From: Nocardioides sp. S5
GTDB lineage: Bacteria; Actinomycetota; Actinomycetes; Propionibacteriales; Nocardioidaceae
Reading direction: 5' to 3'
Assembly: GCF_017310035.1 (NCBI RefSeq)
Contig: NZ_CP022296.1
Location: 1,922,001-1,986,000 of the forward strand
Length of the DNA stretch: 64,000 nucleotides
Below the pieces are notes generated by a model. It was not told the origin of the DNA. It made no database searches and was given only the letters and a program-made list of their open reading frames with translations. Made by a program: the position numbers and the translations under genes. This document shows, piece after piece, positions 5,486 to 63,300 of this stretch. Position 1 is the stretch's first letter. Each line of letters opens with the position of its first letter.

Positions 5486-7033
5486 GTGAGCGAGATCGCG
5501 GTCGAGCTCGCGCGGGTCAAGGGCGCCTTCGCCCAGCCGACGCTGACCCTGCTGCACCAGCGCCAGGCGCCCGTGGTGATCACGATCTTCCGGGCCGCGT
5601 TCGGTCGCAACAACCGGCCCATCCCCACCGCGCGGCTGCACACCCAGGTCGAGGAGCACCTCGCGGGGATCCGCGAGTCGGGCGAGACCGACCTGCCCAG
5701 CGGCAGCGGCCGTGAGATCTGCCAGCGGTGGATGCGCGGGCAGTGGCTGGTGCGCTCGCTCGACGAGCAGGGCCACGAGGTCTACACCCTCACGTCGCAC
5801 GCGCAGCAGGCGCTCGAGCTGGTCAAGAACCTCAGCCGCGACCGCGCCACCCTCAGCGAGCACCGCATCACCACGATCCTCGGCACCGTGCGTCGCTTCA
5901 ACGCCGAGGCCAACCCCGACCGCACGACGCGGGTGTCCATCCTCAACGAGGAGATCGCCCGGCTGCGCGCCGAGCGCGACCGGCTCGTCGACGGCGCGGA
6001 GATGGTCGGGGCCACCGAGGACTACATGCTCGAGGGCTTCACCGAGCTGCTCTCGCTCATCTCCGCCCTCCCCAGCGACTTCGCCCGCGTCGAGGAGCGG
6101 TTCGGGGCCATCCGCGGCGAGATCCTGGCCGCCTTCCGGGCCGAGGACCGACCGGCCGGCGAGGTCATCGACGCCTATCTCGCCCGCGCCGACGCGTTGA
6201 TGACAGCCACCCACGAGGGCCGCGCCTTCGAGGGTGCGTTCGCGCTGCTGCGCGACGACGCGATGGTGACCCAGCTGCGCGAGGACCTCACCGCGGTGCT
6301 CGAGCACCCGCTCTCCGACCGGCTGCTCAGCGACGCCGACCGGGCCGAGCTGCGCGGCACGGTGAGCCTGGTCCGCGAAGGCCTGGACCGCGTGCTGTCG
6401 CAGCGCTCGCGCGTGACCGCGACGCTGAAGGAGTACATCGTCTCCCACGACGCCGTGCGCGACCGCGAGCTGGAGCAGACGCTGCGCCAGGTCGAGTCGG
6501 AGCTGATGACCTGGATGGCGACCACCGGGCCCCGCGCCGTGCACGCCGTGCCGCTGCTCCCCGCACGTGCGTCCGTGGACCACCTGCGCGAGCGCTTCCA
6601 CGACCCCGCCGACGACGTGCTGCCCGACCCGATCCGGGCCGCCGACCCCGCCGACGCGCCGCCGGTGTCGCTCGACGAGCTGATCGCGCATGGTGGCCCC
6701 CAGCTGGACTCGCTGCGCGACCGGCTGGTCGAGGCGTGGTCGGACCTCTCGCCGGTGCGCTCGCTCGGCGAGCTCTTCGACCGGCTCGAGCCCTCGCTCC
6801 AGCGCCCGGTCGAGATCTTCGGCCTGCTCCACCTCGCTGCCGACCTGGCCCGCGAGCCCGCCGCCGCCCCCGGCAGGCCCAGCAGCCCTGACGGCACCGA
6901 CCCTCCGGCCGAGACCTACGTCGCGGTCCGCCACGACGGCACCCGCCGCACGTTCTCGGTGCCACGGGTGCCGCTGCCCGACCCCGACCTCGACCCCGAC
7001 CTCGACACCCACCAGCAGGAGGCCCGCGCATGA
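5486..7033 (+). CDS. jetA: JetA/MksF-like DUF3375 protein (SMC-complex kleisin-type subunit)
   Basis: 515-residue DUF3375 protein, the first gene of a Wadjet/MksBEF-type condensin operon. The family acts as the kleisin-like subunit that bridges SMC heads with the JetB subunit. Visible: an N-terminal winged-helix-rich region (TLTLLHQRQAPVVITIFRAAFG, then SGREICQRWMRGQWLVRSLD), a central helical region (about 120-330) with coiled-coil-like segments (EEIARLRAERDRLVDGAEM), and a C-terminal domain ending in an Asp-rich tail (PDPDLDPDLDTHQQ). The GTG at 5486 was chosen because GGAGGTG lies 5 nt upstream and family-like sequence begins at MSEIAVELARVKGAF; a further-upstream in-frame ATG at 5372 lies against the palindrome. 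jetB starts inside its stop codon (ATGA). Confidence 0.88.
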   Translation: MSEIAVELARVKGAFAQPTLTLLHQRQAPVVITIFRAAFGRNNRPIPTARLHTQVEEHLAGIRESGETDLPSGSGREICQRWMRGQWLVRSLDEQGHEVYTLTSHAQQALELVKNLSRDRATLSEHRITTILGTVRRFNAEANPDRTTRVSILNEEIARLRAERDRLVDGAEMVGATEDYMLEGFTELLSLISALPSDFARVEERFGAIRGEILAAFRAEDRPAGEVIDAYLARADALMTATHEGRAFEGAFALLRDDAMVTQLREDLTAVLEHPLSDRLLSDADRAELRGTVSLVREGLDRVLSQRSRVTATLKEYIVSHDAVRDRELEQTLRQVESELMTWMATTGPRAVHAVPLLPARASVDHLRERFHDPADDVLPDPIRAADPADAPPVSLDELIAHGGPQLDSLRDRLVEAWSDLSPVRSLGELFDRLEPSLQRPVEIFGLLHLAADLAREPAAAPGRPSSPDGTDPPAETYVAVRHDGTRRTFSVPRVPLPDPDLDPDLDTHQQEARA

Positions 7034-7770
7034 GCGTGGACACCGACCTCGACCTCGACCTCGAACCCGACACCGACCTCCAGCCCGAGGACGCGGACCC
7101 GGGCGACCTCGCCTCGGTCTCCCTGTGGGAGGGCGACGAGGGCGGGCTCGAGCACGGCCAGCGGCACGCACTCGTCACGCTGCTCAAGCAGCGCTTCATC
7201 AGCGCCCGCACCCACCCGCGCGACTGGCGCGTGCTGGTCGAGCACGAGCGGGTCATCCGCGGACGCCTCAACGACCTGTTCCTCGACCTCCTCGTCGACC
7301 GGTCCCGCGAGGTCGCGTGGAAGCGTCAGGCCACCTCCGAGACCGGTGGCCGCTTCCCGACCCTGCTCCACGACGTGGCGTGGTCGCGCGAGGAGACGCT
7401 GGTGCTCGTGCACCTGCGCGACCGGCTCCGTGCCGGCCTCGCCGGCGGCGACGCACGGGTGTACGTCGACCGCGACGACGTCGTCGACTACATCGAGAGC
7501 TTCCGTCCGGCCCACGCCACCGACGAGGCGGGCGACGAGAAGCGTGCCCGCAACGCGGTGACCAGCATCGTGAAGGCCGGCCTGCTCATCGGTGCCCCCG
7601 GCGACGACCGCTTCGAGATCAGCGAGGCCGTCGAGCCGCTGCTGCCGCTGGAGCTGCTCCAGGAGCTGCTCGAGGCGCTGCGTCGCGCCAACGGCGGCGA
7701 GGCGCCGGGTGAGCCGGAGGGCGACCTCTTCGAGCCGGCCGCGGACCAGCAGGGACAGGAGCAGGCATGA
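7030..7770 (+). CDS. jetB: JetB/MksE-like DUF4194 protein
   Basis: 246-residue DUF4194 protein, the KITE-type subunit that binds the kleisin (JetA) in Wadjet/Mks SMC complexes. After an acidic Asp/Leu-rich N-terminal tail (residues 1-30) comes the conserved core: GQRHALVTLLKQRFISARTHPRDWRVLVEHERVIRGRLNDLFLDLLVDR, then EVAWKRQA, and a winged-helix region with ETLVLVHLRDRLRAG and VDYIESF. The C-terminal part (NAVTSIVKAGLLIGAPGDDRFEISEAVEPLLPLE) is typical of the family. The ATG overlaps the jetA stop by 4 nt, and its own stop overlaps jetC by 4 nt, so the three proteins are probably made in a coupled, stoichiometric way. Confidence 0.88.
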   Translation: MSVDTDLDLDLEPDTDLQPEDADPGDLASVSLWEGDEGGLEHGQRHALVTLLKQRFISARTHPRDWRVLVEHERVIRGRLNDLFLDLLVDRSREVAWKRQATSETGGRFPTLLHDVAWSREETLVLVHLRDRLRAGLAGGDARVYVDRDDVVDYIESFRPAHATDEAGDEKRARNAVTSIVKAGLLIGAPGDDRFEISEAVEPLLPLELLQELLEALRRANGGEAPGEPEGDLFEPAADQQGQEQA

Positions 7771-10700
7771 GCATCGACGAGGTGCGCCCCGACGCCCCGG
7801 ACGCCACTCCTGACGAGACCGACCCCAACGGGCTCTTCGCCGAGCACAGCGTCGCCACGCCGGCCGACGACACCATGCAGTGGCGCGCCGCGCTGCTGCA
7901 GCTGGTCAACTGGGGCGGCTTCGGCGGCCTCACCACGGTGCCGCTGCGCGGCGACGCCACGATGATCTCCGGTGCCTCGGGCGTCGGCAAGAGCACGATC
8001 CTCGATGCCTACACCGCGCTGATGATGCCGTCGGACACCAAGTTCAACGGCGCCTCCAACGACGCCGTCGCGGGCCGCGCCCGCAGCATCGGTCAGCGCA
8101 ACCTGCTGTCCTACCTGCGCGGTGCCGTCGACGTCGTCGACGACCCGCGCACCGGTCGCCCGGTGGAGAAGCTGCTGCGCGGGCGCGGCGGCGACACCTG
8201 GGGCGCTGTGGCGATGACGTTCGTCAACGACCGGGGCGGGCAGTTCACCGTGCTGCGCACCTACTACGTCCCCCGCCGCGCGACCCGCTCCGGCGAGGTC
8301 CAGATGCAGCTGGTCACCCACGACGGCCCCCTCCGGCTCGACACCCTCGAGGTCGCGGTCGCCGAGCGCTTCCACGCCAACACGCTCAAGAAGCTCTTCC
8401 CCGGTGTGCGGGTCCACCGGACGTACGCCGAGTTTGCCGCGGTGCTGCACGCCCGCCTCGGCATCGGCGCCAACGGCGACGGCGCGAAGGCGCTGCGGCT
8501 GCTGGCCCGCATCCAGTCGGGCAACCAGGTGCGCAGCGTCGACGAGCTCTACAAGGACATGGTGCTCGAGCGCCCGGCGACCTATGCGGCCGCCGACCGG
8601 GCCATCGAGCACTTCGACGACCTCGACGCCGCGCACGCCGCGATGCGCACCGAGCAGCACAAGCTCGAGCTCCTCGAGCCGATCACCGGCATCCACGAGC
8701 GCACGGTCCAGGCCGCGCGGCGGCTCGCCGAGCTGGACTCCTTCGGCGTCACCCGCTCCGGCGACACCCCGCTGCGCACCTGGCTGCTCCAGGAGCACCT
8801 GCGCCTGATCGGACAGGCGGTGACGACCAACCGCGCCGACCGTGCCGCGACGACCGATGCGCTCGCCGCGACCACCGCCGCCGAGCGGGCGCTCGTGGCG
8901 GACGCCGAGGCCGCGCAGGAGGCCCACCGCGCCGCAGGTGGGTCGACCCTGCAGTCGCTGGCGTGGGCGGTGGAGCAGGAGAAGGTCGTGCGCGACGACC
9001 GGGCGAACCGGCGTACGGTCCTCTCCGACCGGCTGCTGCCGCTCGTCGACGTCGCCGACGCCAGCGCGCCCGACATCGACTCGGCGCTGATGTCGGCCGA
9101 GGCCTTCGCGGTGCTTCAGCTGCACGCGCGGCAGTGGCTCGCCGGCTGGGAGCGTGAGCAGGAGCGGCTCAAGCGCGAGCGCGACGGCGCCCGTGACCGG
9201 CGCTACCCGCTCAGCCACCGCCAGGCCGAGCTGCGTCGCGAGCGCGGGTCGCTGGAGAGCCAGAAGGGGCGGGTCGGCTCCCGCATGCACGAGCTGCGCG
9301 CCGAGGTGGCGCGCGCGTCGGGGCTCTCGGAGGACGAGCTGCCCTATGTCGCCGAGCTGCTCGACCTCGCGCCCGAGGAGGCCCGCTGGCGCACCGCGGT
9401 CGAGACCGTCCTCGGTGCCAGCGCCCGCACCCTGCTGGTGCCGGTGGACCGCCTGTCGCACTTCTCCCGCGCCATCGACGGGCTGCACCTGCGAGGACGC
9501 CTCGTCTTCGAGGGCGTCCCGCTCGACCTGCCCGACCTCGGCCCTGCCGATCCCGAGCGGATCGCCGGCAAGCTGCTCTTCAAGGACTCGCCGTTCTCGG
9601 GCTGGGTGCAGGCGCACGTCGCCGAGCCGGCCCGCAACGCGCTGTGCGTCGAGGACGCCTCCGACCTCGACGGCGGCGGCTTTCGCGTCACGCTCGCGGG
9701 CCAGACCCGCAGCGGTCGCCGCGGCACCCACGGTCGCACCGAGGGGCGCAGCATCATCGGCTTCTCCAACGCCGACGCGATCGAGGAGCTCGACACCGAG
9801 CTGGCCTCGATCGGCGCCGACCTCGACGCCATCGACGCCGAGGTCGCCGAGCTCGACCGACGGGCCGCGGTGCTGGAGCACCAGCGATCGGCGTACGACG
9901 CCGTGGCCGTCGCGCGCTTCGACGACCTCGACGTCGAGGCGAGCGAGCGGCGCCTGGCCGACCTCGAGTCCCGGCGCACCGAGATCCTCGGCGCCGACGA
10001 CGAGCTCCAGGTGCTGGAGCAGCAGATCGAGCGGCTCGCCGAGCAGCTGGAGTCGACCCGCCGGGTCCGCTTCGGGCTCGAGGAGCGCCAGCGCGAGCTC
10101 AACGAGCAGCACGGTCGCCTGGTCGACGACGAGGACCTGGTCAACGACCGCCTCGAGACGGCCGCGCCCCTCGCGCTCGACGAGGAGCAGCGCGACGCGC
10201 TCGCCGCGGACTTCCGCGCCGCCGCGGCCCCGGGCGACCCCGACGACCTCGACCGCTTCGCCGAGACCTCCCAGCGCTTGGCCGAGCGGCTGCGCGAGGC
10301 GGTCGGTGACGCCGAGGCGGAGCTGCGCCGCGCCGACGACGAGCTCGCCTCGATCTTCCGCGCCTACAAGCTCCAGTGGGAGTCGCCCAACCTCGGCGCC
10401 ACGGCAGAGTCCTACGGCGACTACGCCCGCATCCTCGAGGAGATCCGCGGCACCGGGCTGGCCGGACGCCGCTCGGAGTGGCGCCGCCGCCTGACCGAGT
10501 GGAGCGGCCAGGACCTCGTGCCCCTGCTGGGTGCGATGGCAGCGTCGGTCGAGGACATCGAGGACCGGCTCGAGCCGATCAACGCGATCCTGCGCCGCCT
10601 CGAGTTCGGAGGCGCCGGCGACCGGCTCCGGATCCGGCTGCGACGCCTCGCCCCGGCACACGTGCAGGTCTTCCTGCGCGACCTGCGCGCGCTCACCGCG

Positions 10701-11234
10701 CGGTCGGCGCCCGACACCGACGAGGCCGACCTCGAGCAGCGCTTCGCCGAGCTCAGCCGTTTCATGGAGCAGCTGCGCCGCCCGACGCAGGGCGGGGACG
10801 GCACCGCGAGCGAGCGCGACCGCCTGCTCGACGTACGCCGTCACGTGGAGGTGAGTGCCGAGCGCTACGACTCGCTGACCGGCGAGCTGCGGGCGACCTA
10901 CCGCACGCTGGGGGAGAAGAGCGGCGGCGAGAGCCAGGAGCTGGTGGCCTTCATCGTCGGGTCGGCACTCCGCTTCCGCCTCGGCGACGAGATGCGCTCG
11001 CGCCCGCGCTTCGCACCGGTCTTCCTCGACGAGGGCTTCGTTAAGGCCGACTCCGAGTTCGCCGGCCGTGCCGTGCGCGCCTGGAAGGGGCTGGGCTTCC
11101 AGCTGGTCATCGGGGTGCCGCTCGACAAGGTCACCGGCCTCGAGCCGCACATGGACGAGCTGCTCGCCATCACCAAGAACAGCACCACGCACCAGTCGTG
11201 GATCACCTCGATCACCGACGCCCGGAGCTCCTAG
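7767..11234 (+). CDS. jetC: JetC/MksB-like SMC-family ATPase (COG4913 type)
   Basis: 1155-residue SMC/MukB-like ATPase, the motor of the JetABC complex. The Walker A motif GASGVGKST is at 69-77, followed by conserved head sequence (FNGASNDAVAGRARSIGQRNLLSYLRG). A long coiled coil is broken by a hinge-like region at about 520-660 (LAPEEARWRTAVETVLGASARTLLVP). The second coil (about 690-900) leads to the C-terminal head with the ABC signature GEKSGGESQ near 1050 and Walker B FLDEGF at about 1086-1091. All ATPase motifs look intact. In type I Wadjet, JetABC extrudes plasmid DNA and hands it to the nuclease JetD. Here the next gene (11251-11541, opposite strand) is unrelated, so JetD is absent from the operon. 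Confidence 0.9.
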   Translation: MSIDEVRPDAPDATPDETDPNGLFAEHSVATPADDTMQWRAALLQLVNWGGFGGLTTVPLRGDATMISGASGVGKSTILDAYTALMMPSDTKFNGASNDAVAGRARSIGQRNLLSYLRGAVDVVDDPRTGRPVEKLLRGRGGDTWGAVAMTFVNDRGGQFTVLRTYYVPRRATRSGEVQMQLVTHDGPLRLDTLEVAVAERFHANTLKKLFPGVRVHRTYAEFAAVLHARLGIGANGDGAKALRLLARIQSGNQVRSVDELYKDMVLERPATYAAADRAIEHFDDLDAAHAAMRTEQHKLELLEPITGIHERTVQAARRLAELDSFGVTRSGDTPLRTWLLQEHLRLIGQAVTTNRADRAATTDALAATTAAERALVADAEAAQEAHRAAGGSTLQSLAWAVEQEKVVRDDRANRRTVLSDRLLPLVDVADASAPDIDSALMSAEAFAVLQLHARQWLAGWEREQERLKRERDGARDRRYPLSHRQAELRRERGSLESQKGRVGSRMHELRAEVARASGLSEDELPYVAELLDLAPEEARWRTAVETVLGASARTLLVPVDRLSHFSRAIDGLHLRGRLVFEGVPLDLPDLGPADPERIAGKLLFKDSPFSGWVQAHVAEPARNALCVEDASDLDGGGFRVTLAGQTRSGRRGTHGRTEGRSIIGFSNADAIEELDTELASIGADLDAIDAEVAELDRRAAVLEHQRSAYDAVAVARFDDLDVEASERRLADLESRRTEILGADDELQVLEQQIERLAEQLESTRRVRFGLEERQRELNEQHGRLVDDEDLVNDRLETAAPLALDEEQRDALAADFRAAAAPGDPDDLDRFAETSQRLAERLREAVGDAEAELRRADDELASIFRAYKLQWESPNLGATAESYGDYARILEEIRGTGLAGRRSEWRRRLTEWSGQDLVPLLGAMAASVEDIEDRLEPINAILRRLEFGGAGDRLRIRLRRLAPAHVQVFLRDLRALTARSAPDTDEADLEQRFAELSRFMEQLRRPTQGGDGTASERDRLLDVRRHVEVSAERYDSLTGELRATYRTLGEKSGGESQELVAFIVGSALRFRLGDEMRSRPRFAPVFLDEGFVKADSEFAGRAVRAWKGLGFQLVIGVPLDKVTGLEPHMDELLAITKNSTTHQSWITSITDARSS

Positions 11235-11250
11235 CGGGGCGGACCCGGAC

Positions 11251-11541
11251 TCACTCGAAGAGCCGGTCCTCCGCCTCGACCGAGGTGACCTCCATCCTCA
11301 GGGCCAGCACCTTCTCCGGCGACAGCCCGAGGCGGGCGAGGATGACCTGGACCTGCGGCAGCACCCAGGGGTAGGACTCGACCGCGACGCGACCGGCCTC
11401 GGTCGCGACGCGGACCCAGACGACGGGCGAGCCGCCGCGGTCCGGCAGCCAGTGCGCCTCCAGCACGCCGGCAGGGGCCAGGGAGGCGACGATCGGCAGC
11501 ATCGCCGCGTCGACCGCCTGCCGCAGCTGCTCCTCGCCCAT
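11251..11541 (-). CDS. Hypothetical protein, 96 residues
   Basis: Not recognised. A compact acidic protein with a probable alpha/beta fold: an N-terminal helix (MGEEQLRQAVDAAMLPIVASL), a strand pair around VVWVRVATEAGRVAVES, a helix PQVQVILARLGLSPEKVLAL and a final strand MEVTSVEAEDRLF. It faces the jetC gene tail-to-tail with only 16 bp between stops. It is too small, and lacks any resemblance, to be JetD. Start ATG at 11541. Confidence 0.65.
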   Translation of the reverse strand: MGEEQLRQAVDAAMLPIVASLAPAGVLEAHWLPDRGGSPVVWVRVATEAGRVAVESYPWVLPQVQVILARLGLSPEKVLALRMEVTSVEAEDRLFE

Positions 11542-46625: not shown

Positions 46626-46907
46626 TCAGTGACGATCCCTCACGACGAAGTGCACCCGGCCGTTCCTGGTGACCGCGTCGAGCAGGCGGCCGCGGACCCG
46701 CGGCACCGCGGGCCCGTCGAGGAAGACCCGTGCCCCGTCCCGCTCGACCACCTCGTCACCGCGTGCCGGCCCGGCCGCCGCCGCGACGCCCAGCGCGTGC
46801 TCTCCGGGGCCCTGCGAGGCGATCCGGAGTCCTGACGTCGCGCCGATGCGGGGGTGGGCGGTGACGCGCCGGACGACCTCACGTGCGTTCGCGGTCATGG
46901 TGAACAC
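46626..46907 (-). CDS. HesB/IscA-fold protein lacking cysteines
   Basis: 93 residues resembling actinobacterial Fe-S cluster assembly HesB-like proteins: MTANAREVVRRVTAHPRIGATSGLRIASQGPGEHALGVAAAAGPARGDEVVERDGARVFLDGPAVPRVRGRLLDAVT. The ARVFLDGPAV segment and the terminal LLDA-NGRVHF match the A-type fold. It has no Cys at all, so it cannot ligate a cluster as IscA does. Such Cys-less forms are common in high-GC Gram-positives and their role is unknown. Start at 46907, or 46898 if the second Met is used. Confidence 0.7.
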   Translation of the reverse strand: MFTMTANAREVVRRVTAHPRIGATSGLRIASQGPGEHALGVAAAAGPARGDEVVERDGARVFLDGPAVPRVRGRLLDAVTRNGRVHFVVRDRH

Positions 46908-47062
46908 GGGGTTGCTCCTCTCGTGGTGCGTTGCCGGGACGGCGCCCGGCCTGCTCCTCCATCAAGACACCACCGGGCGTGCCGGGCAAGGAGACCGAAC
47001 GAGGTGGAGCGGGATCGACGGGCGCCGGTCATCGAGCCGTCACACGACTGTCACACCGTGCC

Positions 47063-47590
<528 letters not shown>

Positions 47591-47592
47591 CC

Positions 47593-47883
47593 CAGTTCCG
47601 CAGCCGCAAATTCGTCCACGCGCTCAACCGTCACGGCATGGTCGGATCGATGGGTCGCGTCGGTGCCGCGGGCGACAACGCCGCCATGGAGAGCTTCTTC
47701 AGCTTGCTCCAGAGGAATGTCCTCGACCGTCGCTCCTGGGCCACTCGCGAGGAGCTCCGGATTGAGGTCGTGACCTGGATCGAGAGGACCTACCACCGCC
47801 GCCGTCGACAGGCCGCCCTCGGCCGATTGACCCCCATCGAGTTCGAGACCATCATGACCGCGTCAGCCACTCAGGCTGCGTGA
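47593..47883 (+). pseudogene. IS3-family transposase, C-terminal fragment
   Basis: About 96 residues of an IS3 OrfB integrase core: QFRSRKFVHALNRHGMVGSMGRVGAAGDNAAMESFFSLLQRNVLDRRSWATREELRIEVVTWIERTYHRRRRQAALGRLTPIEFE. The catalytic Glu is present (MESFF), but the two preceding Asp residues and the N-terminal helix-turn-helix are missing, as is OrfA. The left border coincides with truncation of the GerMN gene and the right border with truncation of an integrase, so it marks a junction formed by insertion plus deletion. Confidence 0.85.
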
Positions 47884-47902
47884 CCCAACCTGTCACCTGA
47901 TC

Positions 47903-48253
47903 GTGCAGCAGCCCCGGAAGTGGTCGGCCGAAGGCTTCGTGCTCGTCAATGAGTGGGGTGATCAGTTGGCGCCGTGGACCTTGCAACGAGCGATGCGCAG
48001 GGCGAGAGCGAAAGTGTCTGGGCTGCCGCCGGATTTCAGGTTCCATGACCTGAGGCACTACCTGGCGAGCATGCTCATCGCCAGCGGTGCCGACGTGAAG
48101 GTCGTCCAGGCGCGCTTGCGGCACGCCTCAGCCAAGACCACGCTCGACACGTACGCCCATCTGTGGCCGGACTCGGATGAGTCGACCCGCTCGGCGATCG
48201 ACGCGGTGATGCAGACAAGAGCCGAGGAGCTTCAGTCAGCCGAATCGCTCTGA
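47903..48253 (+). pseudogene. Tyrosine integrase, C-terminal fragment
   Basis: About 116 residues of a phage-type tyrosine recombinase catalytic domain: FRFHDLRHYLASMLIASGADVKVVQARLRHASAKTTLDTYAHLWPDSDESTR, with HxxR (HDLRH), the third-box His (LRHASA) and the nucleophile Tyr (DTYAHL). The first catalytic Arg region and the N-terminal core-binding domain are missing, so it cannot act alone. It begins 20 bp after the IS3 fragment. The 3' end overlaps hepT by 22 nt. Confidence 0.8.
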
Positions 48254-48603
48254 GTCGAATCCTCGCCCGAACCTGACACCGAGCGTGCGCGCATGCGGTC
48301 GACGGCGTCGCGCAGTGGGCCTAGATCTTCCTCGATGGTGCTCTGCAGGATCTCAAGCTCGGTCATGAAGTACCGGTGCGCGAGGTGGTCGCGCATGCGC
48401 GCGATCTGGCGCCACGGGATGTCGGGTTCGGTTGATGTCAGGTTCTCGGGGAGCGCCTTGACTGCTTCACCGATCTCCAGGAGTCGGATGCGTACCGCGT
48501 CGCTCACCAAGCTGTCCGACAGCGGTCCCCGCTCGACATGCGATCGGATGGCCTCAGTCGCGGCGGTGATGTCGTCGAGGCGATCGGCGTCGTGACGACT
48601 CAC
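48232..48603 (-). CDS. hepT: HepT-type toxin (DUF86 HEPN ribonuclease)
   Basis: 123-residue HEPN-domain toxin of the MntA-HepT system. The catalytic/AMPylated RX4HXY motif is R71-D-H-L-A-H76-R-Y78 (RMRDHLAHRYFM). The preceding helices (DAVRIRLLEIGEAVKALPENLTSTEPDIPWRQIA) are typical of DUF86. HepT cleaves RNA, and is silenced when MntA adds AMP to the motif Tyr. The C-terminal tail (SGSGEDSTQSDSAD) is Ser/Asp-rich. Its start overlaps the mntA stop by 4 nt. Full length, so the pair may be functional despite lying among gene remnants. Confidence 0.9.
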   Translation of the reverse strand: MSRHDADRLDDITAATEAIRSHVERGPLSDSLVSDAVRIRLLEIGEAVKALPENLTSTEPDIPWRQIARMRDHLAHRYFMTELEILQSTIEEDLGPLRDAVDRMRARSVSGSGEDSTQSDSAD

Positions 48604-48926
48604 AGTGCGATGAGGTCCTGCTGGACACGGACCCGCACGCGATCCTTGAGCCCAGAGTGAGGTACGAGGTCTACAGGGACGCCCAGGATGGCCTCGAGCT
48701 CGTCCTGAATCCGCAGGATGGTGAACAAGCTTGTGCGGGGCGCGAAGTCGACCAGGATGTCCAGATCACTGCCGTCGTGGTCGTCGCCGCGGGCAACGCT
48801 GCCAAAGAGGCGGGCGTTCCCGACGCCGTGACGCTCGAGCACCTCGCGCAACTGGTCCCGGTGGGCAGCCACGAGCCGACCAGTCGGGCCGGTGAGCGGA
48901 CCGACTTCGGGCGTCGGCTTGGTCAT
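48600..48926 (-). CDS. mntA: MntA-type antitoxin (minimal nucleotidyltransferase)
   Basis: 108-residue nucleotidyltransferase. The GSX10DXD signature is complete: FGSVARGDDHDGSDLDILVDF at 41-61, with both Asp residues for Mg-ATP. It would AMPylate HepT and neutralise it. RIQDELEAILGVPVDLVPHSGLKDRVRVRV follows the family. ATG at 48926 was chosen; an in-frame start at 48989 would add 21 residues of non-family sequence. The gene is first in a two-gene operon with hepT (ATGA overlap). Such pairs are frequently mobile-element cargo. Confidence 0.9.
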   Translation of the reverse strand: MTKPTPEVGPLTGPTGRLVAAHRDQLREVLERHGVGNARLFGSVARGDDHDGSDLDILVDFAPRTSLFTILRIQDELEAILGVPVDLVPHSGLKDRVRVRVQQDLIAL

Positions 48927-49049
48927 GTTCCGATCGTACCGGGAAGTGATCTCCCGGTCCGGACGCCGCTGGCTCCCGTTGGCCGACACCGTCCGTCATT
49001 GGTCCGCGATGAAACGTTTTGCGGACTCGTTGCGGACTGAGACGAAACA

Positions 49050-49092
49050 AACCGGCTCCCGAATCTGCGTTTTCGCAGGTCAGGAGCCGGTT
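49050..49092. terminator. Nested hairpin, terminator or structured-RNA-like
   Basis: Outer arms AACCGGCTCC (49050-49059) and GGAGCCGGTT (49083-49092) are perfect 10-bp complements. Inside, CTGCG (49065-49069) and CGCAG (49074-49078) close a TTTT tetraloop. A 9-bp direct repeat TTGCGGACT occurs twice just upstream (49019-49038). No gene ends directly here, so the hairpin may be a relic of an integrase 3' region or part of an attachment locus. Confidence 0.6.
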
Positions 49093-49376
49093 CGCTAGGT
49101 CTTGGAGTCTAGATGTCGTAGATCTGATCGCGCGGCTCGCTGACCTGCGGAGACAAGAAGATTGCGGAGGTTCGGTCCACACTGGGGCCACGCGCTCGCG
49201 ACCCCTCGAACAGCAGAGTCCGTCGTTGGCAGAGGAGTTTGATTATCCGCGGTCCTTGGATCACAGCGCCTGTAGGACCAGCGCTTGCGGCCCTCACGCT
49301 TGAGGATCGCCGTCATCTCGGCCTCGACGTTGAGCGGCGCGATTGGGAGCGCACCACGTTTCGCAGCGAGGGGGTT
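49093..49376. other. Non-coding or decayed stretch before the tRNA-like site
   Basis: About 280 bp with no supported gene on either strand. A minus-strand segment around 49270-49320 (EMTAILKREGRKRWSYRR) looks protein-like but soon meets a stop, so it may be relic coding sequence. Confidence 0.3.
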
Positions 49377-49401
49377 GCGGGTTCGACTCCCGCAGGGTCC
49401 A
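49377..49401 (+). other. tRNA 3'-end-like sequence (T arm plus acceptor strand), possible attachment site
   Basis: GCGGG-TTCGACT-CCCGC forms a perfect T arm with a 7-nt TTCGACT loop. AGGGTCC plus discriminator A follow as an acceptor 3' strand. No matching 5' acceptor strand (GGACCCT) or normal D/anticodon arms can be found upstream, so it is not a complete tRNA. Integrative elements commonly recombine into tRNA 3' ends and leave such copies. An excisionase-like gene starts 44 bp downstream. Confidence 0.45.
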
Positions 49402-49444
49402 CTGACTGCCTGACAGGCGTCGGTAAGAGCAGGGGAGGGCGGTC

Positions 49445-49675
49445 ATGGCGAGCCGATACGTCAGCCTGCAGGAGGCTGCAGAGATGCTCGCAGTGTCCGC
49501 GAAGACCGTTAGGCGCTTCATCGCCAAGGGTGATCTCCCTGCTTACACGCTCGGCAAGCGCGGGGCAGGTAGCGGCCGGCCGATCCGGATCCGCGTGGAC
49601 GACCTCGCAACTCTTCTCCATCGCATCCCTACCTCTGGAGACGATCGCGCTCATGGGGAAGGTGCCGAGGACTGA
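49445..49675 (+). CDS. Excisionase-family / MerR-like helix-turn-helix DNA-binding protein
   Basis: 76 residues with the HTH_17 excisionase fold: RYVSLQEAAEMLAVSAKTVRRFIAKGDLPAYTLGKRGAGSGRPIRIRVDDLATLL. It is adjacent to the tRNA-like site, as expected for a recombination directionality factor or small element regulator. No intact integrase is next to it; the nearest is at 60184. Start ATG at 49445, with AGGGGAGGG upstream. Confidence 0.85.
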   Translation: MASRYVSLQEAAEMLAVSAKTVRRFIAKGDLPAYTLGKRGAGSGRPIRIRVDDLATLLHRIPTSGDDRAHGEGAED

Positions 49676-50011
49676 CCGGTGTGTTCGACCCGCAGGCGTC
49701 GGCCACCGCCCGAACGGCGGGCGGTGCCCTTTCGGTCCGGCGTGCGGGATCTCAGCGCGTGTGGCCAGGGAGGCATTGCGCACTGATGAATGCTGAGCAT
49801 CGCCTTCAGAACTCTTGCTCGGTCAGAGCCCGCTCGCTATACCCTGGTTCCGGCAACCGCCAGTTCTGCACGTAGTCCCGCGGCAGTGACGGACGTCGAG
49901 GCCGCGGTGTCAGGCCCACGCGTTTCAACGGCGGATCGACTGACTTGCGCGACGCGAACGTCGCTGCCCTTCGCCGCCTGTCGGCTGCCCCGCCGGGCAG
50001 GCCTTGGGTGA
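49676..50011. other. Gene-free stretch
   Basis: 336 bp in which no frame on either strand has a recognisable or well-initiated protein. Contains a GGCCACCGCCCGAACGGCGGGCGGTGCC hairpin (about 49700-49727) just after the excisionase-like gene that could be its terminator. Confidence 0.4.
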
Positions 50012-50473
50012 TCAGCCTTGGTAGCGATACCCGGCTACCACGCGTCCCCCGACTTTGCGGGCCGCATAGGCCGCGGCTTCATATGTATACGAGTCCCCCT
50101 TGGACTGGTCGATGATCAGAACCCCGGCCTTGCGAGCCATGTATCCCGGTTCGCACGGCTCGGTGTCGTAGTCGTAGGTCGTGCACGAGAGCCAGTCCCG
50201 CCACTCGTCCAGCGCACGTGAGGTGTTTCGATACGTCATCAGGTAGTACTCACGCCGCCCACTGGATCCGGGACGGACAACACAGTTCCAACCATGAGCA
50301 ACTCGAGCATCCGAGGCAAGCGCGTCGGCCTCCCCGTACTTGCATCGCATCTGCTTCGCCAAAGACTTGAGATAGGGCATCGCCGTGGTCGCGCTTGCGG
50401 GTGCGTCTACGAGCGCTACCAGGCTCGTTGCGACAAGAGCGGACCCGATGAAACCAGAGATCAGGCGTTTCAT
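50012..50473 (-). CDS. Hypothetical secreted protein
   Basis: 153 residues, not recognised. It starts with a clear Sec signal peptide, MKRLISGFIGSALVATSLVALVDAPASAT, with cleavage likely after ASA. The mature part has four Cys (MRCKYG, NCVVRP, LSCTTYDYDTEPCEP) and is rich in Tyr. The C-terminal SYTYEAAAYAARKVGGRVVAGYRYQG suggests a compact beta-rich domain. An earlier in-frame start (50545) would bury the signal peptide behind 24 residues, so the ATG at 50473 is preferred. Confidence 0.65.
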   Translation of the reverse strand: MKRLISGFIGSALVATSLVALVDAPASATTAMPYLKSLAKQMRCKYGEADALASDARVAHGWNCVVRPGSSGRREYYLMTYRNTSRALDEWRDWLSCTTYDYDTEPCEPGYMARKAGVLIIDQSKGDSYTYEAAAYAARKVGGRVVAGYRYQG

Positions 50474-50663
50474 TCCCTCAGGGTAGGCCCCGATCGAGCG
50501 GCGGGCGTTGAGCTTGGAAGTTTTCTCTACGGGGACGCGCGGCATGGTGGCCGAGCCCGGTGACGCTACACCCGCCCGTCGCAGACCGTGCGCGTGCGGG
50601 AAGCGTTAGTGCGCACCCCTTAGCCCATTCCGCCGCGAGTCGCACACGCCGCCCCCGACAGTC

Positions 50664-51176
50664 CTAGTGCATGCTGCCGATCAGTCGCGCGAAGGCCGCC
50701 TCTGTGATGACGGGAATGCCATAACTGCGGGCCTTCGCAGCCTTGCCGCTTTGCGAGTCGGGGTCGGCGGCGACCACGACCTTGGTCTTCTTCGTGATGC
50801 CGCCGCACTTCAGCCCGGCCTGCTGCACCAGGTCCTCCAGTTGACCCCGAGGCACAGAGAGCTCGCCGGTGAAGACCACCTGGTCGCCCATCTCCAGCCT
50901 GAAGTCACCGTCGGTGGCTGAGCGTCCGGCGAGCTTCTCGGCACGTTCGAGGGCGATCCGCACGAGCCCGCCCGGAAGGCCAAGCATGCTCGCCACGCTG
51001 CTCAGGTCGGCGAACTCCGACTCGGTCACGACGCCGTCCTCCCAGGCAGCGATGGCCATGGCATCGAGGAAGGTGGCGTGCACGGCGGCGATTTGGTCGC
51101 GGTGGAGTCCAAGTTCGATCGCAACTCCGATCAGGGCCTCTTCCTCGTGGGCCGCGCGGTCGCAGAGGTGACCCAT
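50664..51176 (-). CDS. TerB-like plus BRCT domain protein (possibly truncated exonuclease homologue)
   Basis: 170 residues. The first half is a TerB-like helical region (EEALIGVAIELGLHRDQIAAVHATFLDAMAIAAWEDGVVTESEFADLSSVASMLGL). The second half is a BRCT domain (LEMGDQVVFTGELSVPRGQLEDLVQQAGLKCGGITKKTKVVVAADPDSQSGKAAKARSYGIPVITEAAFARLI) similar to that of DNA ligase. In Actinobacteria these two often form the C-terminus of larger proteins with an N-terminal DEDDh exonuclease domain. Here the start comes just before the TerB part, so it is likely an N-terminally truncated copy, in line with its island location. Confidence 0.75.
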   Translation of the reverse strand: MGHLCDRAAHEEEALIGVAIELGLHRDQIAAVHATFLDAMAIAAWEDGVVTESEFADLSSVASMLGLPGGLVRIALERAEKLAGRSATDGDFRLEMGDQVVFTGELSVPRGQLEDLVQQAGLKCGGITKKTKVVVAADPDSQSGKAAKARSYGIPVITEAAFARLIGSMH

Positions 51177-51266
51177 TCCGCCGCTTGCCAGCGCTCCCGG
51201 CTCCGGCCACTGATCGGCGTTCCGCCTTCGGCGCTGGTTAGTGGCCGGCGCCGGTGCGGCTTGCGT

Positions 51267-51938
51267 TCAGCTACACCGACAGTGACCCAGAGGGTCTGGC
51301 AGTGTGTTGCAGGAGGGACATAGGTCGGCCTCCTGCGCTGCCGGCACCCGCGGGACGTGTGGGGCCGATGCAGCCGGAGTTGCCTCGACACGCAGCGAGT
51401 CTCTCCACTCCTGCAAATTGGCCTCTCGCTCCTCCGGGGTCAACGTGGAGAGGCGTCTGCTCTGAGACTCACGTTGCGCGACTTCCCGCGCCTCCCGTCG
51501 CGCCCTGCTCTTCGCCCAAGCATCCTCACGCTTCGCGATCCGTGCTTGCTCCATAGTTGCAGCCACGGCGGCGCGCTCCTCGCGAACCTCGTCCAGGTCG
51601 ACCGAGCCCGCGGCCTCATACTCGGCCTCGATCGCCCGTTGCTCGGCCTCGATCGCCTGTCGCTCCGCCTCGACCAATTTGCGGTCAGCCTCAGCGCGCC
51701 GCCGCTCCGCTTCCGCCAGGTGCCGAGCTGCCGCAAGCCACTCGACCAGCAGGAGTCTTCCTTGGCAAGCGTCCATCACGGTCTGAGCGGAGCGGAGTGC
51801 GACGACGAACGACGCGGACGCCAGTTCGTGAACTTCAGCTCGCTCCGCGAAGGTGCGACGACGCTCAGCCGAGAGCAAATGGTCTTGCTTGCGCTCCCAC
51901 AAGCGGACGATCCGGTCCACTTCGTCGCTGTTTGGCAT
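51267..51938 (-). CDS. Hypothetical coiled-coil protein with C-terminal zinc-ribbon-like motif
   Basis: 223 residues, not recognised. Residues about 70-190 are almost entirely charged heptad-like helix, with a run of near-repeats (AEADRKLVEAERQAIEAEQRAIEAE). The C-terminus carries CPSCNTLPDPLGHCRC, a plausible zinc knuckle. The N-terminal 60 residues (DEVDRIVRLWERKQDHLLSAERRRTFAERAEVHELASASFV) are also helical. No membrane segment. Start ATG at 51938. Possibly a structural or nucleic-acid-associated protein; function unknown. Confidence 0.65.
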   Translation of the reverse strand: MPNSDEVDRIVRLWERKQDHLLSAERRRTFAERAEVHELASASFVVALRSAQTVMDACQGRLLLVEWLAAARHLAEAERRRAEADRKLVEAERQAIEAEQRAIEAEYEAAGSVDLDEVREERAAVAATMEQARIAKREDAWAKSRARREAREVAQRESQSRRLSTLTPEEREANLQEWRDSLRVEATPAASAPHVPRVPAAQEADLCPSCNTLPDPLGHCRCS

Positions 51939-52145
51939 GGCGTCTCCCTACATCGTCACCCGAGGGAGTCTAGGTCTCCAGCCTTCCGAGCATGGTCGAT
52001 GTTGTTACCAACCGCAGGTCCCGCGTCACAGCGGCGCTGGGGTCGGACTGAGTAGCGCCGGTGCGGCATTCCGCCGCTTGCATGCCTCGCTGGACAATCC
52101 CCGATTCGCACTTCGGCGGCAGCCGGTTCCTATTACCGTCGACGC
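51939..52145. other. Intergenic region, divergent promoters expected
   Basis: 207 bp between divergent genes; contains no supported gene. No clear operator symmetry was found. Confidence 0.35.
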
Positions 52146-52394
52146 ATGACGAATGTGCCCACTACCGATCGCGTATGGGTGGAGGAACGGGGTCGTTGGT
52201 ATCCAGGCGTCCTAGAGACGTGGAACACCCGCGACCGCGTATTGCGGGCATGGGTGTCGTATGCCGTACCCATCAACGGATGGCCCGGCGGCTGGTACAA
52301 GGTCCAGGAGGTGCTCAGCGTTCCAGAGGACGAGGATCCGAACGACGAGGGCAAGAGCTGGATCACGAGGGTCGAAGGCGCTCGCAACACGTGA
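52146..52394 (+). CDS. Hypothetical small protein, 82 residues
   Basis: Not recognised. TDRVWVEERGRWYPGVLETWNTRDRVLRAWVSYAVPINGWPGGWYKVQEVLSV has the spacing of a small SH3/Tudor-like beta-barrel (strand-turn-strand with many Trp/Tyr), and an acidic tail follows (EDEDPNDEGKS). ATG at 52146. The opposite strand also has an open frame, but with poorer composition. Moderate confidence that it is real. Confidence 0.5.
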   Translation: MTNVPTTDRVWVEERGRWYPGVLETWNTRDRVLRAWVSYAVPINGWPGGWYKVQEVLSVPEDEDPNDEGKSWITRVEGARNT

Positions 52395-52518
52395 GGTCGA
52401 GGCGGCCTCGGGACGGGTGCGTCCTTCCGCCGCCTGCGAGGAAGGGTCGATTGGCCTTACCGAGGTCGAGGTGGTGCCAGCATGTCGGCGAGCCGGCGGA
52501 ACGTTTTTAAGAGTCCGG

Positions 52519-53016
52519 TCAGTGTGATGCGGGCAGGAAGAGTGGCCAGGAGCAGCCGTAGTCGGACTCCGCCTCGATGATCACAGGCGTCCTGCGCCCG
52601 TCGGACTTCGGCAGATCACCTAGCGGTCGCCAACTCCACTCATGCAGGACGAGCGGAGGTGTCAAGGGAGCGCTCATGCCCTCGCGCAGGACCAGAGCAT
52701 CCGCCCACTGATGATGAACCCGGTTTCTGGCACAGCGAACGGCGTTCACGGCACAGCGAACGGCGTTCACGAGGTCACCTCCTGCAACCCGAGTTCTCCA
52801 CGACCAGTCCAACGGAATTCCCTCAGGAGCCCAGTGTGCGCGCACTTGGTCATCAAGGGCGACCGCCCAGTTCAGCGCCTCGAACAGCGGCAAGAATACG
52901 TCGCTGGCGTTGCGACCCTTCGACGCGTCTGTGAAGCGCCTCAGGGCTTGTTCGTAGCCGTCAAGCAGCGTCCGGTAGGTGACGATATTCGTGTCGTACG
53001 GATTCATCGCGCCCAC
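52519..53016 (-). CDS. Hypothetical protein with internal 7-residue duplication
   Basis: 165 residues (or 162 from the Met at 53007). Helical: NIVTYRTLLDGYEQALRRFTDASKGRNASDVFLPLFEALNWAVALDDQVRAHW, then VNAVRCAVNAVRCARNRVHHQWADALV, and a C-terminal WRPLGDLP segment. The RNRVHHQWADAL motif recurs in uncharacterised actinobacterial proteins (memory-based). A 21-bp exact tandem duplication produces the doubled VNAVRCA just before this motif, which may disturb the helix. Function unknown. Confidence 0.65.
   Translation of the reverse strand: MGAMNPYDTNIVTYRTLLDGYEQALRRFTDASKGRNASDVFLPLFEALNWAVALDDQVRAHWAPEGIPLDWSWRTRVAGGDLVNAVRCAVNAVRCARNRVHHQWADALVLREGMSAPLTPPLVLHEWSWRPLGDLPKSDGRRTPVIIEAESDYGCSWPLFLPASH
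52729..52770. repeat. 21-bp exact tandem duplication inside a gene
   Basis: GGCACAGCGAACGGCGTTCAC occurs at 52729-52749 and again at 52750-52770 with no mismatch and no gap. Being a multiple of three it keeps the frame and adds seven residues (VNAVRCA) to the minus-strand protein. Confidence 0.95.
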
Positions 53017-53250
53017 CGTCGCACACCCTCAGCCAGGCGCACGGGACTGCTGCACAATTCGGCGACACCTCGACTAGCCCATGCTGCCGAAGCTGCGCGC
53101 GGCCATTCAGGCGGACATTGACAGTGAAGTCGACGATCCCGAGAGCCTGACGAACCGCTTTCGTGCTCTCTTGGACGACTAGCTGGTCGCGCCCACAAGA
53201 GACTGTCAGATGGTCGATCAAACCTCGAGTCCGAGCATAGGAGGCACGGC

Positions 53251-53898
53251 ATGTCAGATCGACTGCAGAAAGCGTTGAAGCACCAATACATCTACATGCC
53301 GAGGGCCACTGGGAAGGACACCCTCGCGCTCGGCATGCACGTCGGACTCGCAGTGGCTCGAGAACACCGCGCACGTCTGACCGTCCTTTCTGTTCCGAAG
53401 GGCGGCGCGGCTCACCACGCAGAGCTCGCGAAGCTGCCAATCGTGACGGAGCGCAGCGGGTCTGTGCCAGACCGTGGCGTTGTTCTCGCGTGGTGCCCAC
53501 GGCACAAGACCACGGAGAAGCTGCAGCATCTTGAGTCGAGCGTCGTCGTGCTCGTGGAGTGGATCCCGGACGAGATGGCGGCCTGGGCAAAGTTGCATAA
53601 GGCATACAACTTCGTCACTGGCGAAATCATGGACGCAGGGCTCGACGAGGAAACCACAGGATTGCCGCAACGCATCGTGGCCGAGGGGTACAACGGCTGG
53701 ACGAAGAGCACCGACGTCACGATGACGAAGAGCTACATCAGGGACTTGTCGAAGACCGGCTCCTACGACCGCAACATGATCCTTGCCTACGCGCGGCAGA
53801 CGAAGCATGAAACGAGCGTGCAGCGACTGGTGAAGATTCTGGACGAGGTCGACAAGACTCGGCCGAGCGACGACCCTCCGCAACGTTGGGTGCTGTAA
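53251..53898 (+). CDS. Hypothetical protein, 215 residues
   Basis: Not recognised. It opens MSDRLQKALKHQYIYMPRATGKDTLALGMHVGLAVAREHRARLTVLSVPKGGAAHHAELAKLP, an alpha/beta pattern with a strand RLTVLSVPK, then VVLAWCPRHKTTEKLQHLESSVVVLVEWIPDEMAAWAKLHKAYNFVTGE with two further strands. The ATGKDT stretch resembles a nucleotide-binding loop only superficially (no GxxxxGKT). The rest is helical (YIRDLSKTGSYDRNMILAYARQTKHETSVQRLVKILDEVDKT). Excellent AGGAGG ribosome-binding site 6 nt before the ATG supports translation. Confidence 0.7.
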   Translation: MSDRLQKALKHQYIYMPRATGKDTLALGMHVGLAVAREHRARLTVLSVPKGGAAHHAELAKLPIVTERSGSVPDRGVVLAWCPRHKTTEKLQHLESSVVVLVEWIPDEMAAWAKLHKAYNFVTGEIMDAGLDEETTGLPQRIVAEGYNGWTKSTDVTMTKSYIRDLSKTGSYDRNMILAYARQTKHETSVQRLVKILDEVDKTRPSDDPPQRWVL

Positions 53899-54249
53899 CG
53901 ATCGGCATTTGCGTCACCGATCGGCGGCGGCCCAACCACCCTGTCACGGTCACACCTCGCGCCGTAATCCGTCCTGCAGGTCGTGAGGTGCGGCATTTCG
54001 CCGCCTGACGGCGCTTGGCCGGCATCGCGCGATCCGATCGTCGCGTGGGCGCGAGGAACCGCTGCGACGTCACGTCGCTCGCCTACGTCGCCAACCGACG
54101 CATGAACGGGGGGAGCTCTCGCCAAGCACTGGTCGCTACGACCGCGCATCGCCTAATAGACGCGTGGTCCGACACTGGCGGCGATCCCTTAACTACGAAG
54201 TGAGTACTTCGATCACTGCTATACCCGACCGTCGAGCACAATCAGTTCC
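53899..54249. other. Gene-free stretch
   Basis: 351 bp with no supported gene. It presumably contains the promoter of the 657-residue protein gene. I see no hairpin or repeat of note. Confidence 0.4.
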
Positions 54250-56223
54250 ATGACGCCGCAGCAGGCTAGCTTCGCCGACTACTTCGACAAGTGGGGACTC
54301 ACCTTGCCGGACGAGGCCGTGGCGCGTCGCAGCAACGGGCACGTCAACGGAGCCGGGTGGTCGGTGCGATTCGTGTGGCAAGACGATGGCACGCTCCTGT
54401 TCCGGGCTAACCATCGGATGACCAACGAACGAGTGCACGCGATCGCGTTGGACGGTGAACTCACTTGGGCCGAGCCAGCGGCTCCCGCGGAGTTCGTGGT
54501 AATCCCAGAAGGAGCCACCCCCGAGGACAATGCCCGCATCCAGAGCGAGTATCAGCACGCGTGGACGGCGTACTCGGAGGCCATCGCTCTCGTCGGCCTC
54601 GACTTCGACCCCAACTCCCCACCAGTCGGGCTGCATGACGCTCCTAGTCAGACGTGGCGGCTCGACGACGGCGACTGGCAGTCGGGTCCGCTGCATCCTG
54701 CGGGAAGAGCGAGTAGCACTCACGGAGACGGGTCTGCCCGATCCCGCCAAAAAGAGATCGCCCGCGGTGGCTCCCTCACAGGGACATTGAATCGCCCTCC
54801 GGCAGCAGAGCAGGTGCGCACGGAGTCTCAGCCGCGAAACAAAGAGCCCGCGTGTCCGGCTTCGGGTCCAGACGACGTCGAAGGCGGCTGCAATCCGCCG
54901 ACCGCCTATTTTGCCTCCCTGGTCGAACCATTCGCGGCCGGCCTCTTGCACAAGTGCCACGCTCTGCTCGACCTCGACCTCAACTCGCACCAACGATCCA
55001 GGCTGCGGGAAGCGATCAGCATCGACCTACGCAAGATGTGCGACATCCTCGTGCCGGCTGCTCGGCCACCTCGCATCAGTGAGGCCGCCAACGCGATCGC
55101 CGCAACGATGGGGGTGGACCTTCGCACCGCGACCTGGCACTCGCAGAAGAAGATCGACGGCTACAAGACGTTCACCTACGAACACATGACCCCGGTCAAC
55201 TGGTTCGTGTCGAAGATCGGCGAGGCAACCTCGCCCGAGGAAGTCCTCGGCATCATCGACCAACACATGTGGATCACCTGGGTTACCAAGGAAGAAGATG
55301 CCGAGTTGAGGCGACTCGGCTACTCATCCACACGTCCGAACCCGGCCAGTGCCTACGAGGACGCAGGGGTCGCCCTACTGCCGGTTGAGCCCGACCCGGA
55401 CCTGCCCTCCGCCAAGAGCGACACGCCCGCAGGCGGAGGCATGTCGACACCCGTGCGTCTGGTGGACGCACGCCCACCGCTCTACGCCGGGGACCGATGG
55501 TTACCCCAAGCCTGGGCGATGGGCGCTAAGGGAATCCCGCCCGCCCCAACCGAGGAGGACGTCTCCGGGAGCCGGCAACGGGAACACGCCGCTGAAGAGA
55601 TGCTCGCCTTCTGGGCGCCGCTCCTTCACCTGCTTACATGGGGGCTTGGCTGGATCCGCCCAGACATCGGTCTGGTCGAATGGCGCCGGTGCGGAAGCGC
55701 TAGCGATCCAGTGCTGGACCTGGTCGCCCGGTGGTGGACACCAGCGCAACTGGAAGATTTCCTTGCCTGGGCCGAGACCAGTGGCGCGCTGAGCGACTTC
55801 GCGCAAGACTTCCTCAACGCATGCCCAGACCTGCGAATCACAGAACGCGACGTCCAACAAGATCTCGACCTGGACCCGAAAGTTCTCGGTCGGCAGAAGT
55901 TCGACGATTGGACGTCGCGCTGGGACGCCTACGACCCTTACCGCATAGTCGAGCACCTGACGCAGGGATGGCGGGGCTCAAGCGACAGCGCCCCTCTCAA
56001 CCCGGTGCCGGTCCAACTCACGAATGGCACACTGCTGGTCGCGGCACATAAGTACGCGCGGTGGGCTTCACTCCCACGTCACTACCAGTATGGAGGCGAC
56101 GCCCTTATTGACGTGTACGTGGCCAACGTCGGCGCCCTCGGAACATTCACTCAATCGCAAACAACTGGCCTATGGCACCGCACGCTCGAAGAGATCCATC
56201 TCTTGGGGTACCCCCTACTCTGA
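54250..56223 (+). CDS. Large uncharacterised multidomain protein, 657 residues
   Basis: Not recognised as a named family. Four zones can be seen. (1) 1-125: beta-rich module (GWSVRFVWQDDGTLLFRANHRMTNERVHAIALDGE), a type seen in small actinobacterial hypotheticals. (2) about 125-215: low-complexity linker. (3) about 216-380: helical module with SRLREAISIDLRKMCDILVP, ISEAANAIAATMGVDLRTATWHSQKKIDGYKTFTYEHMTPVNWF and WITWVTKEEDAELRRLGYSSTRPNPASAYEDAGV; the YEHMTPVNW stretch is faintly HNH-like (speculation). (4) 400-657: Trp-rich acidic domain. Soluble, no signal peptide. It lies in an island; a defence or element-maintenance role is possible but unproven. ATG at 54250. Confidence 0.75.
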   Translation: MTPQQASFADYFDKWGLTLPDEAVARRSNGHVNGAGWSVRFVWQDDGTLLFRANHRMTNERVHAIALDGELTWAEPAAPAEFVVIPEGATPEDNARIQSEYQHAWTAYSEAIALVGLDFDPNSPPVGLHDAPSQTWRLDDGDWQSGPLHPAGRASSTHGDGSARSRQKEIARGGSLTGTLNRPPAAEQVRTESQPRNKEPACPASGPDDVEGGCNPPTAYFASLVEPFAAGLLHKCHALLDLDLNSHQRSRLREAISIDLRKMCDILVPAARPPRISEAANAIAATMGVDLRTATWHSQKKIDGYKTFTYEHMTPVNWFVSKIGEATSPEEVLGIIDQHMWITWVTKEEDAELRRLGYSSTRPNPASAYEDAGVALLPVEPDPDLPSAKSDTPAGGGMSTPVRLVDARPPLYAGDRWLPQAWAMGAKGIPPAPTEEDVSGSRQREHAAEEMLAFWAPLLHLLTWGLGWIRPDIGLVEWRRCGSASDPVLDLVARWWTPAQLEDFLAWAETSGALSDFAQDFLNACPDLRITERDVQQDLDLDPKVLGRQKFDDWTSRWDAYDPYRIVEHLTQGWRGSSDSAPLNPVPVQLTNGTLLVAAHKYARWASLPRHYQYGGDALIDVYVANVGALGTFTQSQTTGLWHRTLEEIHLLGYPLL

Positions 56224-63238: not shown

Positions 63239-63300
63239 CGTCCCTCCCTTCAGTGGGTCGGATACCGACTCTGAGCGGGTCGTCGTGGCTGTTGTGCGCT

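Follow-up and report, generated by a model that had tools for sequence, protein, structure and literature searches.

Type I Wadjet systems (JetABCD, also named MksBEFG) combine a kleisin, a KITE subunit and an SMC ATPase with a nuclease, JetD or MksG, and MksG is reported to be the cutting part in Corynebacterium glutamicum (PMC10123090). Several members of the Wadjet group are described without MksG/JetD, and the systematic search presented in PMC7617805 allowed for such operons. Section 7 of PMC10586767 proposes that MukBEF and MksBEF derive from a Wadjet-like defence system; it describes the proteins of these cases as highly diverged, and the MksBEF of Pseudomonas aeruginosa is regarded as a likely JetD-less derivative. 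That complex acts in chromosome organisation and segregation according to PMC7485682. JetD-less complexes of the Wadjet group are therefore already published (PMC10586767, PMC7617805). Here we describe a JetABC operon of Nocardioides sp. S5, located in a 64,000-nucleotide stretch of contig NZ_CP022296.1 (bases 1922001-1986000; hereafter the window), which has no detectable jetD in its genome and looks like a type I Wadjet system that has been disarmed by loss of its nuclease gene.

The operon resembles type I Wadjet in its kleisin, KITE and SMC genes, in gene order, in the family models that its products match and in the homology of JetA and JetC, but neither the operon nor the genome encodes JetD/MksG. 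The MksG-less operons of PMC7617805, which are MksBEF without MksG and whose neighbours were checked in that study by structure prediction, are of the same kind. P. aeruginosa MksBEF, compared by its description rather than its sequence, is likewise a nuclease-less Wadjet-group complex found beside Smc, whereas the operons in Nocardioides fit the type I models, and jetD is found in some of their close kin. Escherichia coli MukBEF is also presented as a JetD-less member of the group (PMC7617805), but it is said to have replaced Smc-ScpAB in its hosts (PMC10586767), and a full-length housekeeping Smc (940 bits) is present here. What is new, relative to the accounts given in PMC10586767 and PMC7617805, is that the loss of jetD is resolved more finely. 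Among the matches listed, judged by titles and abstract openings, we found no paper on a JetD-less Wadjet system in Nocardioides, with supplements and most subscription papers outside the scope of that survey.

The three genes are intact, co-directional on the plus strand and coupled by 4-nucleotide overlaps at 7030-7033 and 7767-7770, and both the coordinates and the family models agree with the initial annotation, which had read them as coupled genes for DUF3375, DUF4194 and SMC proteins. JetA matches Pfam PF11855 (DUF3375, 364 bits), PADLOC JetA1 (622 bits) and the PDB chains named JetA in 8dk1 and 8q72; its frame has a first GTG at 5372, and the GTG at 5486 is the start consistent with the relatives. 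JetB matches PF13835 (DUF4194, 130 bits) and PADLOC JetB1 (414 bits), and it finds the PDB JetB at E 4e-14 with a family profile and at E 0.19 with the single sequence. JetC matches PADLOC JetC1 (1432 bits), SbcC/Rad50-like ATPase motifs in Pfam, and the PDB chains named JetC in 8as8 and 8dk2. The bit scores exclude chance. The matched JetA and JetC chains are presumably those of P. aeruginosa PA14 and E. coli GF4-3. The ATPase motifs reported initially for the 1155-residue JetC are present in the translation, where we take GASGVGKS to be the Walker A motif, SGGES the signature and FLDEGF the Walker B motif. The type I gene set (JetA kleisin, JetB KITE, JetC SMC) is present as one operon, which is equally a complete MksF-MksE-MksB operon without MksG in the operon or its flanks, and the GC (guanine plus cytosine) content of the operon is the same as that of its surroundings.

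The component of type I Wadjet that the operon does not encode is the JetD nuclease (DUF3322 plus DUF2220/JetD_C). The initial annotation had seen no JetD in the window and proposed a genome-wide search with hidden Markov models. That search extends the absence to the whole genome (a single contig of 4.75 Mb, 99.15% complete), in which neither the PF09983 nor the PF11795 profile detected JetD, and a third profile, built from three JetD sequences of the family to which the window's operon belongs, gave no match at E <= 1. Both Pfam searches match in C. glutamicum, the positive control, and all three profiles match in JetD-bearing relatives, for example G024 and G027 (G numbers denote genomes, L numbers loci). 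When 14 JetD proteins were compared by tblastn with the 8 kb that follow jetC in the window, no remnant was detected at E <= 1. Behind the jetC of other JetD-less loci, weak matches (E 0.06-0.91) were taken as chance, as was a JetD-like match 6.5 kb upstream of jetC in L222 (29% over 85 amino acids).

The same form is common among relatives, the nearest of which by JetC are N. furvisabuli (97%) and N. lacusdianchii (96%). Our near-kin sample comprises 64 loci from named genomes with a close JetC, defined by short peptides shared with the window's JetC; 61 are from Nocardioides and the rest from Pimelobacter simplex, Nocardioidaceae and Propionibacteriales. Behind jetC, jetD is absent from 60 of these loci, two of which (L215, L218) end within 1.3 kb of jetC, and present in four (L224, L225, L231, L238). 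An order-level sample of 342 genomes, in which the positions of JetA and JetD were paired, holds 83 JetA copies in 74 genomes of the genus. Thirteen of these copies have JetD behind them, 4.6-5.3 kb after JetA, 61 are in genomes without JetD, and nine are in genomes with JetD elsewhere, one case being a fragment of 84 positions (G182). Of the 54 JetA copies outside the genus, 34 are followed by JetD, 11 are in genomes that have it elsewhere (three of them apparently on split contigs) and nine are in genomes without it. Included in the count are G274, G342 and G289, where JetD is on another contig and which look like split assemblies; five weak or fragmentary JetA rows (three of G351, one each of G057 and G216) and the 12 weakest JetD rows were left out of the pairing. 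With no more than four JetA candidates scored per genome, some copies may have gone uncounted. Eight genus genomes (G013, G083, G171, G208, G255, G296, G329 and G350) hold a JetA with JetD 4.6-5.3 kb behind it plus a JetA copy without JetD; both copies were retrieved for five of the eight, the second copy of G208 not being among them. The initial annotation had proposed that conserved JetABC with JetD absent from all relatives would make the reduced form real; in these samples most genus copies are JetD-less, and some are not.

In the operons without jetD, JetABC stays under purifying selection. Across 32 gene comparisons from 11 JetD-less pairs (jetC of L062/L089 left out), the ratio of nonsynonymous to synonymous substitution rates (dN/dS) of jetA, jetB and jetC was 0.02-0.31 by the pairwise Nei-Gojobori method; the values are rough, the genes being GC-rich and subject to codon bias, and some pairs share members. 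Among the 64 named loci, one open frame covering at least 90% of JetA, 65% of JetB or 93% of JetC was found in 61, 63 and 61 cases, respectively. The exceptions are L258, at a contig end, the JetD-bearing L231, in JetA, and the JetD-less L254, L259 and L260. Taken in the best tblastn piece per locus, the Walker A pattern is present in 61/64, and the signature and the Walker B motif in 63/64 each. The nuclease-less version first suggested is thereby supported as real, rather than a gap in the data: many members of the genus have this form, and selection acts on it. As a separate observation, the JetD-bearing N. caeni (L082 / L231) has an in-frame stop in jetA, and its motor may be broken.

How an armed operon (one with jetD) differs from a disarmed one can be seen in the jetD-bearing L224 of Nocardioides sp. 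LHD-245 and the jetD-less L230 of N. carbamazepini, whose JetC proteins are 93% identical. The two loci are collinear over most of 17 kb: the jetABC part (5.8 kb) aligns at 90% identity, the next gene at 83% and another 4.7 kb at 91%. The next gene is convergent (173 amino acids in L218), and the distance from the jetC stop to its stop is 1153 nucleotides in L224, which includes jetD, 12 in both L230 and L223, and 0 in L218. In this pair jetD is an insertion or deletion (indel) exactly between jetC and the following gene; four more indels of ~0.3 to 1.8 kb separate the two loci, upstream and further downstream. In L246 (N. albidus) the alignment resumes ~5 kb behind the jetC position of L224, and the stretch behind jetC is therefore a variable spot. 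Among L224, L230, L223 and L246 the genes between jetC and a common downstream anchor vary, beyond jetD itself. In L225 (N. flavescens), jetD is present, but an unrelated insert of ~50 codons that contains two in-frame stops interrupts it (L225:10476-11828).

In two JetC trees, the JetD carriers L068, L081, L082, L224 and L225 are scattered inside the JetD-less family; the first tree omits L004 and L113, which have no JetC, and L073-L075, and the second omits L254, L259 and L260. If JetD was ancestral at the root, the minimum is five losses for the 36 crown members and 11 for the full tree of 71, counting with only branches of at least 95 in the Shimodaira-Hasegawa-like approximate likelihood ratio test (SH-aLRT) trusted and with polytomies resolved toward fewer losses. 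Counted without direction, the first tree has eight changes, six of them forced by well-supported branches. The JetD labels are clustered on the first tree, where 0 of 500 shuffles scored as low, and not beyond chance on the second (78 of 500). The JetD proteins of the five family carriers form one group (94/91, not starred), L225 being represented by the 223 residues before its first stop, and the identities of JetD and JetC fall together in the family: 77 and 92% for L081-L082, 60 and 69% for L068-L081, and 45 and 53% for L068-L072. Because the carriers are scattered, the L224/L230 indel lies in collinear surroundings and the jetD of L225 is interrupted, loss looks like the main direction of jetD change, with regain possible, and the window's operon looks like a derived, disarmed Wadjet rather than one that was originally JetD-free. 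The initial annotation had pointed to relatives with jetD directly behind jetC as possible signs of a recent deletion here. Such relatives exist; the smallest supported sets that hold the window in the second JetC tree (3, 4 and 6 rows) are JetD-less throughout, and the loss would thus not be recent in the window's own sub-clade.

Several findings weigh against an operon shaped mainly by loss of jetD and retained for a chromosomal role. Undirected counts give eight or five changes on the JetC trees and three on the rpoB tree, which leaves room for fewer losses combined with regain. When the JetD and JetC trees were compared over 14 armed operons, JetD placed L085 beside L083 and L086, and JetC placed it beside L118-L120; the JetD of the window's family lay outside the group holding L072, while its JetC lay with L072; because the trees conflict in part, exchange of jetD has apparently happened at times. 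JetA, present in 30 of the 37 genus genomes of the first relative set (own genome included), is absent from seven. Flanking genes are not common across the genus and neighbourhoods differ between species. JetC and rpoB distances are correlated only moderately (Mantel r 0.43, a value reached in none of 999 permutations), and the nearest neighbours by the two genes match in 18 of 41 cases. Together, these three patterns resemble a defence or accessory system more than they do a housekeeping condensin; to judge from the rpoB comparison and the neighbourhoods, the operon is accessory and has moved or been exchanged. Jet genes are broken in the three JetD-less loci L254, L259 and L260. Finally, selection cannot separate armed from disarmed operons, because the one armed pair compared, L081/L082, has similar values for jetA (0.10) and jetB (0.28), its jetD being at 0.22. 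Some of these points would suit a jetD that is a module gained or exchanged several times by a JetD-free operon, and not mainly lost. We consider such a history improbable: the three label changes on the rpoB tree, the JetD-less majority state in the genus, the partial conflict of the trees among armed operons and the variable stretch behind jetC in the L224-related group agree with it, but the JetD proteins of the five family carriers form a single group (94/91), jetD is directly behind jetC in the examined armed operons, other JetABCD sub-families included, and the L225 copy is an interrupted one.

The explanation we prefer, with confidence evenly balanced, is that a type I Wadjet (MksBEFG) operon was deprived of its nuclease gene here and has been kept for a non-cutting role of the motor. 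Because the cutter was apparently lost and the motor kept intact, the motor probably has a cutting-free job. By analogy with characterised homologues, two JetC dimers joined by JetA would, together with JetB, be loaded onto DNA and use ATP to extrude loops. The literature on homologues proposes that JetD is activated once extrusion of a small circle completes; without JetD, extrusion would end in compaction and not in cleavage, with no known means to cut. Most likely, the complex would be an accessory, non-essential loop extruder acting alongside the housekeeping Smc on the DNA of the cell itself, like P. aeruginosa MksBEF, the chromosome as target being the weakest step. The initial annotation had offered three options, namely a housekeeping condensin, a system that borrows another nuclease and a silencer that compacts plasmids. 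JetD supplied in trans is excluded for the genome itself and for 61 of the 83 genus copies; condensin and silencer are inseparable by sequence. We judge an MksBEF-like accessory role in DNA organisation to be the most likely and a non-cutting restrainer of plasmids second, with a borrowed nuclease or mere decay unlikely.

As an anti-plasmid system without cutting, JetABC would still locate small circles of DNA, extrude them completely and restrain plasmids through compaction, silencing or disturbed segregation. We hold this to be rather unlikely, and it is the alternative with most in its favour: the patchy, shuffled distribution resembles that of a defence system, armed and JetD-less forms can coexist (as in the eight genus genomes), and the operon is closely related to systems that cut. 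However, all four subunits are required in Bacillus subtilis, according to PMC10586767, and there is no conserved nearby partner that might mediate silencing. A replacement partner was sought by clustering flanking frames, in 35 loci with a JetC match and then in 64 of 65 loci (one without JetA was left out), and no flanking gene family extended beyond small sub-clades; the most widespread one reached 7/64 loci, within 3.5 kb. This scarcity also counts against recruitment by JetABC of an unrelated nuclease encoded elsewhere, which we regard as very unlikely. A retained docking site for such a nuclease would fit the N-terminal JetB motif, which reads [FW]EGDEG in the family of the window's operon and has F-x-GD variants in other JetB proteins. 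The motif is kept in JetD-bearing and JetD-less members alike; neither the JetD-less L114-L116 nor the distant JetD-bearing L074 and L090 show it. However, the motif cannot be equated with the reported site of JetD contact. Section 7 of PMC10586767 describes an N-terminal IFDR motif of JetB that contacts JetD, and the proposed correspondence was dropped, as residues 40-43 of 8dk1, opposite the motif, read NIQV. The three profiles find no JetD, the other nucleases of the genome not having been surveyed. Marginally less probable still is a decaying remnant, in which loss of jetD preceded an ongoing decay of JetABC; the three broken loci would agree with this, but the high counts of intact frames (JetA 61, JetB 63 and JetC 61 of 64) and the low dN/dS do not.

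A broader reading for Nocardioides and its relatives is tentative and somewhat doubtful: jetD would be a detachable warhead that is cleanly and repeatedly lost, with the bare motor kept as a non-cutting DNA-looping system. If true, the step from defence to condensin proposed for MukBEF would be visible as it happens, many times over within a single genus. Armed and disarmed operons are available with JetC 93% identical, in collinear surroundings and with the jetD indel directly behind jetC. With such operons it can be tested whether bare JetABC still acts on DNA, on which DNA, and what the gain or removal of JetD alters.

Table 1. The JetABC operon and the features behind it (positions in the window)
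Feature	Position	Strand	Description
jetA / mksF	5486..7033	+	kleisin (DUF3375), start codon GTG
jetB / mksE	7030..7770	+	KITE subunit (DUF4194), conserved N-terminal [FW]EGDEG motif
jetC / mksB	7767..11234	+	SMC ATPase, 1155 amino acids, Walker A, signature and Walker B intact
short gap 3' of jetC	11235..11250	.	jetD site in some same-family relatives; no jetD remnant seen here
96-amino-acid gene	11251..11541	-	function unknown; convergent with jetC, unrelated to jet genes

The gene that follows jetC, described initially as an unrelated 96-residue gene on the opposite strand, is as described and has no Pfam or PADLOC match; it was seen only in near relatives and is kept in three (L199, L239 and L250).

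Other JetD-less operons were encountered among the relatives. A second JetD-less JetABC family (L045, L048, L051, L101-L110 and L117), found in the genus and in another family of the order, has one JetD-bearing member, L117, nested inside it, so that the same pattern is repeated. Outside the genus, L114, L115 and L116 form a distant group of JetD-less JetABC operons whose JetB is without the N-terminal EGDEG-type motif; this group is possibly an older conversion. Genome G032 has no JetA match, and a 101-amino-acid frame in it (L080:8687-8992) resembles the C-terminal end of another JetD sub-family. This frame adjoins an apparent toxin-antitoxin pair of the Phd/VapC type, read from the letters with no family search.

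Farther along the window, the GC content is 0.63-0.67 at 48001-64000 and mostly 0.70-0.77 before. PADLOC gave no match in the eight frames scanned in this lower-GC region. A protein with an rve integrase core is encoded at 46669-47883, just before the lower-GC stretch, and three consecutive tyrosine-recombinase-like genes, the first slightly below the Pfam cut-off, lie on the minus strand at 57286-61542. The region 46669-63542 is likely a mobile island.

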